The translations under genes and the position numbers were made by a program. A DNA stretch of 64,000 bases from positions 80,001-144,000 of the forward strand of contig NZ_CP017305.1 of NCBI RefSeq assembly GCF_001747405.1, in the 5' to 3' direction. Shown piece after piece: positions 49,356 through 50,576 of this stretch. This DNA is from Chlorobaculum limnaeum. Lineage in GTDB: Bacteria > Bacteroidota > Chlorobiia > Chlorobiales > Chlorobiaceae. The notes under the pieces are model-generated. The model was not told the origin of the DNA. It ran no database searches and saw nothing but the letters and a program-made list of their open reading frames with translations. Positions within the stretch are counted from its first letter, which is position 1, and each line of letters begins with the position of its first letter.

Positions 49356-50576
49356 AGACCTGATGAGTTCGCTTGCCTATGTTCCGGTCTTTGCTGAAAG
49401 TCCGACACTCGATGAACTTGCAGGCTTGCCATCATTGGAGCCTTTCGGCGCGACAGTTGTAAACTTCATTGATGCTTTTTCGAAATCGATGCTTGCGTCT
49501 CAGGAGGCCCGCAACTATCCGGAGCTTGCTGCGTTGGCCTTCTGGCTTCGCCGTTCCAGCGTTAAAAAATTGAAACGTCACGCCCTCGATAAAGCTCGCA
49601 TCCGTGTGCCGCGCGGCGTCGCCTTTCATGTCGCTCCGACCAACGTCGATACGATCTTCATCTATTCATGGTTTCTGTCATTGTTGTGCGGGAACAGCAA
49701 TATTGTCCGGATTTCATCAAAACCTTCCAAGCAGGTTGACGTCATTATCGAAATTATCGGAAAGCTCTTCGAGCAAGAGGATTTTGCGGCTGTTCGCGAT
49801 CGTTCGCTGATTGTGCAGTATGGCCACGATGCAAAGGTAACCGTGCTATTTTCATCGAACTGCGATGTTCGCCTGGTGTGGGGGGGGGCGATAAGACGAT
49901 CAATGAAATACGCGAAGCGCCCCTGCCTCCGACTGCCGTCGAAATGACCTTTGCAAATAAATATTCGTTTGCGGTCATCGATGCACAGAGCATCCTCAAT
50001 GCAGACGATGCCCAACTGCGAAGTCTGGTCGATGCGTTCTATAACGATGCTTACTGGTTTGCGCAGATGGCCTGTTCGAGTCCGCGCATGATTGTCTGGT
50101 TGAGCCGGAATCGCCATGGCGTTCAACAAGCTCGCGATATCTTCTGGCTGTTGTTGCAACAGCGTATTGAAGCTGGAGATTCAGGTCTCGATATGAGTGA
50201 TTACGTCAACAAGAGAGTCGCCGTTGATTCGTTGGCATTGCATGAGCAGGTTCAGATTGAGCAAAGTTCGAATAACGATATATCGAGAGTGTGGCTGCCA
50301 AAACCGGAAATTCATGAGGAGCTGCAATGCGGTGCCGGGTTGTTTTTCGAGTCGGTTATCGTAGAGCTTGAAGAGTTGCTGCCACTGCTTTCCCGGAAAA
50401 TACAGACCATAAGCTACGCAGGCATCAGCCGTGAGCGTTGGCGGAATTTTTTAACCAAAAGCAATGTGCCTGGTATCGATAGAGTCGTTCCTATAGGTAA
50501 AGCATTAGACTTTGATTATATCTGGGATGGATTTGATATGCCTGAAATGTTGATGAGAGAAATAAAAGTTTTATAG
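49330..50576 (+). CDS. LuxC-like acyl-CoA/acyl-protein reductase, frameshifted at a G9 tract
   Basis: The first frame (ATG 49330, or ATG 49363 beginning MSSLAYVPVF) gives the N-terminal aldehyde-dehydrogenase-like part: PRGVAFHVAPTNVDTIFIYSWFLSLLCGNSNIVRISSK, then SSNCDVRLVWGG, where the frame is lost in a run of nine G. The second frame continues DKTINEIREAPLPPTAVEMTFANKYSFAVIDA to 50576. LuxC proteins normally read WGGD or WGGE at this point, so G7 (WGGD) or G10 (WGGGD) would give one protein of about 415 residues. As sequenced, translation stops at 49947, and the residues after the cofactor-binding loop are missing. Confidence 0.85.
49880..49888 (+). repeat. G9 homopolymer at the luxC frameshift
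   Basis: Nine consecutive G inside luxC, flanked by GTGT and CGAT. It is the longest G run I noticed in the window and sits exactly where the two luxC frames must join. Poly-G tracts of this length are typical slipped-strand phase-variation switches. Confidence 0.8.

Follow-up and report, generated by a model that had tools for sequence, protein, structure and literature searches.

A nine-G run splits luxC in the deposited genome of Chlorobaculum limnaeum: a candidate phase-variable site in a surface-polysaccharide island

Poly-G phase variation of surface-glycan genes is described for Helicobacter canadensis (PMC2823697) and, as cited in PMC5084427, for the lgt genes of Neisseria; in each a long intragenic G run governs the reading frame. 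In these systems tract length differs between reads or between strains, on/off tracts lie mostly near the 5' end of the gene, and the pattern is common to many loci. The run of nine G's (G9) in C. limnaeum luxC resembles these tracts in setting the frame of a surface-glycan gene from within, but it is a single call from one assembly and lies mid-gene, at about codon 184 of 416.

The closest counterpart to the gene context is the module in Aeromonas Group II polar flagellin glycosylation islands, where the same five kinds of gene are listed, in identical order, in a surface-glycan setting (PMC7874193). There, luxC is followed by fgi-1, whereas in C. limnaeum it is split by the G9 run and followed by a DegT aminotransferase, in a polysaccharide/exosortase locus instead of a flagellin island.

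The window, the whole stretch of DNA analysed here (64,000 nucleotides), contains the following features around luxC.

37353-45209, plus strand: surface-polysaccharide genes (NAD epimerase, UDP-GlcNAc 2-epimerase, glycosyltransferases, sugar transferases, DegT)
45209-45865, plus strand: PglD/NeuD-like hexapeptide acyltransferase
45872-46114, plus strand: acyl carrier protein (ACP); NCBIfam ACP models match weakly, below cut-off; syntenic in relatives
46123-46866, plus strand: FabG-like 3-oxoacyl-ACP reductase (SDR)
46863-48260, plus strand: AMP-dependent acyl ligase, intact (PF00501, 4.4e-47); the closest NCBIfam model, ligase_PEP_1, is below cut-off
48264-49355, plus strand: luxE, acyl-protein synthetase, intact (PF04443, 1.9e-56)
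49330-49947, plus strand: luxC 5' fragment, 205 aa (PF05893, 4.6e-10, profile 84-179)
49878-50576, plus strand: luxC 3' fragment (frame B), 232 aa from GTG (PF05893, 1.8e-9, profile 177-391)
49880-49888, plus strand: G9 run at the WGG codons of luxC, in frame if G7 or G10
50597-51772, plus strand: DegT/PseC-like sugar aminotransferase, adjoining luxC on its 3' side (PF01041, 7.7e-93)
51947-52789, plus strand: exosortase (PF09721, 8.5e-34), XrtV/XrtB-like, below cut-off

luxC closes a five-gene module of ACP, FabG-like reductase, AMP-dependent ligase, luxE and luxC (45872-50576), and this order is collinear in Dyella, Cupriavidus, Desulfocapsa, Saccharibacillus, actinobacteria, Bacteroidota MAGs and many other loci. 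In Dyella and Cupriavidus a homologue of the PglD/NeuD-like acyltransferase sits directly 3' of luxC. The ACP-FabG-ligase-LuxE-LuxC cassette occurs widely in the surface-glycan loci of different phyla. Searches of 40 relatives with the LuxC protein and with PF05893 returned no luxC orthologue; since no relative in the order has this luxC, the island was probably acquired. Weak PF05893 matches do occur elsewhere; as the model also scores in control genomes, E. coli among them, these probably represent other aldehyde dehydrogenase-like proteins. A search of a plasmid collection gave short matches only (65-68%), and a sequence search found no solved structure for the LuxC half.

It is confirmed that luxC is split by the G9 run in the deposited sequence. 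The first-pass annotation had placed nine G's at the codons of the WGG motif, and they are indeed there, in the context TGGTGT-GGGGGGGGG-CGATAAG, where two partial PF05893 (LuxC) frames meet. The two halves match adjoining parts of the profile, together covering positions 84-391, with scores of 39.4 and 37.4 bits against a gathering cut-off of 21. The upstream frame (...CDVRLVWGGAIRRSMK..., SNCDVRLVWGG) follows LuxC up to the WGG motif, departs from the family sequence after it and ends in an out-of-frame tail with a stop at 49947. The downstream frame, which is -1 relative to the upstream one, starts GGGDKTINEIR... and holds the conserved cysteine of MACSSPR; the assignment to LuxC is supported by the presence of both the CSSPR motif in frame B and the WGG motif at the junction. 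The sequence TGG GGG GGC GAT needs G7, an inserted glycine needs G10, and G9 is out of frame. This arithmetic, also put forward on first inspection, is correct, as is the genus (Chlorobaculum) named then, and the tract position reads W-G-G-[D/N] in 34/34 LuxC relatives, a comparison set of related loci drawn from a bacterial genome collection.

Apart from the frame shift the gene is undecayed: there are no further stops, and 62 of 64 near-invariant LuxC residues, including the CSSP cysteine, are retained across the two frames. In all 32 relatives whose gene is free of a contig-end cut, luxC is a single open frame. The retention of near-invariant residues implies that the break is either recent or not real. 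If it is real, the 205-aa product lacks the half with the catalytic cysteine, so the OFF state is probably null despite the mid-gene position of the tract, and, from what is known of the family, acyl reduction by LuxE/LuxC should fail.

How unusual such a run is depends on the scale considered. For the window, which is AT-richer (46% GC), a first-order Markov model predicts 0.11 runs of nine or more G/C, so the initial view that a G9 run is unlikely by chance holds locally; it does not hold genome-wide, where C. limnaeum has 10 tracts of at least nine G's, an ordinary number for the genus (roughly 2-14 in each of 20 other Chlorobaculum genomes). Such tracts are absent from most genomes of the sister families of the order, and long G tracts are a habit of Chlorobiaceae. 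Those of at least nine G's in C. limnaeum and the genus are mostly intergenic, with no concentration in surface genes; of the other tracts of at least eight in C. limnaeum, those within genes are in recJ and at the iorA and ftcD ends, and the rest are intergenic. The longest tracts seen in Chlorobiaceae are G19 and G16, with mutS intact, and loss of mismatch repair was rejected as a cause of the tracts because mutS1 is full length in C. limnaeum. A C8 run also occurs in the window at 6598-6605, inside a 500-codon open frame (5778-7277, minus strand) with no Pfam match.

The length of the luxC run has to be read with the sequencing method in mind. The genome of C. limnaeum DSM 1677T (CP017305) comprises one contig of 2,797,276 bp, obtained by 454 GS FLX+ sequencing at more than 60x and Newbler assembly, with gaps closed by PCR and Sanger sequencing (PMC5473272). 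Consensus error in 454 data climbs exponentially with homopolymer length; the published fit, 4e-8*e^(1.707x), leaves the unit of f ambiguous, but read as a fraction it comes to about 0.19 for a run of nine (PMC3045373). luxC may therefore be intact and its G9 a homopolymer miscall, with a true run most plausibly of G10 (called one short) and less plausibly of G7 (called two long); we regard this as a serious possibility, though one that falls somewhat short of even chances.

Several observations weigh against a miscall. Stretches sampled from the C. limnaeum genome were compared, by alignment, with the proteins of a relative (2,289,249 bp). About 120 kb of conserved coding DNA showed no homopolymer frameshift, which rules out a generally poor assembly. 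One of 164 gene comparisons, some of which may involve shadow frames, gave a frameshift candidate, and it lacked a homopolymer. The same DNA contains, in frame, 45 A/T runs of six, 11 of seven, three of eight and two of ten (the A10 of KsgA was counted twice in the raw tally of 10-mers), together with nine G/C 6-mers. By inspection of open reading frames, nine G7 runs are called in frame in apparent coding genes, as is a G8 run in recJ; the nine G7 calls make it unlikely that a true G7 was read as G9. A G10 run would add a glycine to the WGG motif, an insertion absent from every relative compared, and a uniform overcall of one base would leave luxC with G8, likewise out of frame.

An argument for a miscall comes from the two other G9 tracts that can be tested against orthologues, one at the end of iorA and one at the end of ftcD: both are off-frame, each one G beyond the G8 that would keep the frame. 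The iorA tract lies at genome positions 34701-34709, where the stop is lost and iorA and iorB are fused into a 742-aa frame; relatives have AAGGGGGAGTAA (KGE, then stop) where C. limnaeum has AAGGGGGGGGGAATAACC, and G8, or the ancestral G5, would bring back the stop. The ftcD tract (1697247-1697255) lies two codons ahead of the usual stop of the family, and the GLAGV-stop of relatives becomes GLGGGVDQ..., 75 residues longer; G8 would give GLGGV-stop. These positions recall the 3' poly-G tracts of H. canadensis, which switch C-termini or fusions (PMC2823697), in that both lie at gene ends and alter a stop, but here a +1 miscall accounts for both. The two tracts look like one-base 454 overcalls, although real slippage at gene ends that tolerate it would leave the same picture. 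In addition, G9 runs are somewhat over-represented relative to G8 in this genome (7/13, against 30% in 15 congeners; binomial P = 0.058).

Tract growth in the genus nevertheless looks real, mostly outside surface genes, as judged from genome comparison. The iorA run measures eight or nine in C. limnaeum against G5 in its closest relatives, a lengthening too large for a miscall. In another complete Chlorobaculum genome (G017, contig C1 at about 1362607) a G9 run splits the small subunit of a [NiFe] uptake hydrogenase: its N-terminal part matches the HoxK family as far as a Gly-Gly near residue 92, and the match of its C-terminal part picks up at 91, so that G7 is expected and G9 present, a +2 change as in luxC. 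In other relatives, genes for an HI0933-like flavoprotein and for an M50 peptidase contain G9 runs that are in frame.

The explanation favoured here, to which we give about an even chance, is that a G run lengthened by slippage, and probably unstable, shuts luxC off in the sequenced culture and may revert. The ancestral luxC would have carried a G7 run imposed by its Trp-Gly-Gly codons (TGG GGG GGC). Strand slippage, in a lineage in which G tracts often grow, would then have produced a run of about nine, putting luxC out of frame after WGG and leaving a 205-aa product. The ACP-reductase-ligase-LuxE-LuxC pathway would halt before acyl reduction, and, were the lesion recent and the run mutable, the frame could be regained by a slip to G7 or G10. 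The break in the G017 hydrogenase, a change from G7 to G9 that arose independently, argues for slippage; the 454/Newbler origin of the assembly and the apparent overcalls at both other testable G9 runs argue against it.

A further reading holds that luxC is an evolved contingency locus, in which the tract is maintained and slippage switches an acyl-modified surface polysaccharide, as in Helicobacter, Campylobacter and Neisseria. It has in its favour a frame-changing homopolymer within the phase-variable range (the H. canadensis search used tracts of at least seven G's; PMC2823697), located in a surface-polysaccharide operon with the remainder of the gene conserved. The tract is not near the 5' end, however, its length comes from one call in one assembly, and the genus offers no orthologue that could reveal tract conservation. 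Tracts of at least nine G's are mostly intergenic or in metabolic genes and are not concentrated in surface or variable genes, and the intact mutS does not imply a general loss of mismatch repair. The G7 state implied by the LuxC protein takes just one GGG codon, and as GGG encodes 17.5% of the glycines in the island genes, nothing points to selection for the run. We consider a maintained switch unlikely. A slippage-prone G tract in a surface-polysaccharide gene does fit a contingency locus, but the first-pass description of the run as a classic contingency-locus signature overstates the case, since slippage damage or a miscall explains G9 equally well. The luxC tract is best described as a candidate phase-variable site and not as a demonstrated or selected switch.

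The G9 allele might also be read through, by a -1 ribosomal slip or by RNA polymerase adding a G, so that a proportion of the LuxC made would be complete and carry WGGGD. Runs of G are plausible slippery sites, and the downstream luxC frame is in the -1 register that such a slip would enter. The sequence 3' of the run shows nothing unusual in the way of stimulatory RNA structure (z = 0.07), which rules out a frameshift-stimulating structure at luxC; recoding is seen in no relative, and the product would carry a glycine insertion foreign to the family. Read-through is very improbable.

The consequences differ with the true state of the run. If it is a miscall, the G9 calls of CP017305 (luxC, iorA and ftcD) are a caution against inferring pseudogenes or fusions from such sequence unchecked. 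If the tract is both real and variable, a free-living green sulfur bacterium would join those known to switch surface glycans through poly-G slippage, and the growth of G tracts would look like a mutational habit of Chlorobaculum that also affects metabolic genes such as that of the uptake hydrogenase. A broader proposal, that unstable G tracts across the genus, some of them at Gly-Gly codons, reversibly switch luxC, the small subunit of the G017 uptake hydrogenase, the fusion of iorA with iorB and the C-terminus of FtcD, is unlikely; if true, it would represent poly-G phase variation outside host-associated bacteria, in free-living phototrophs.
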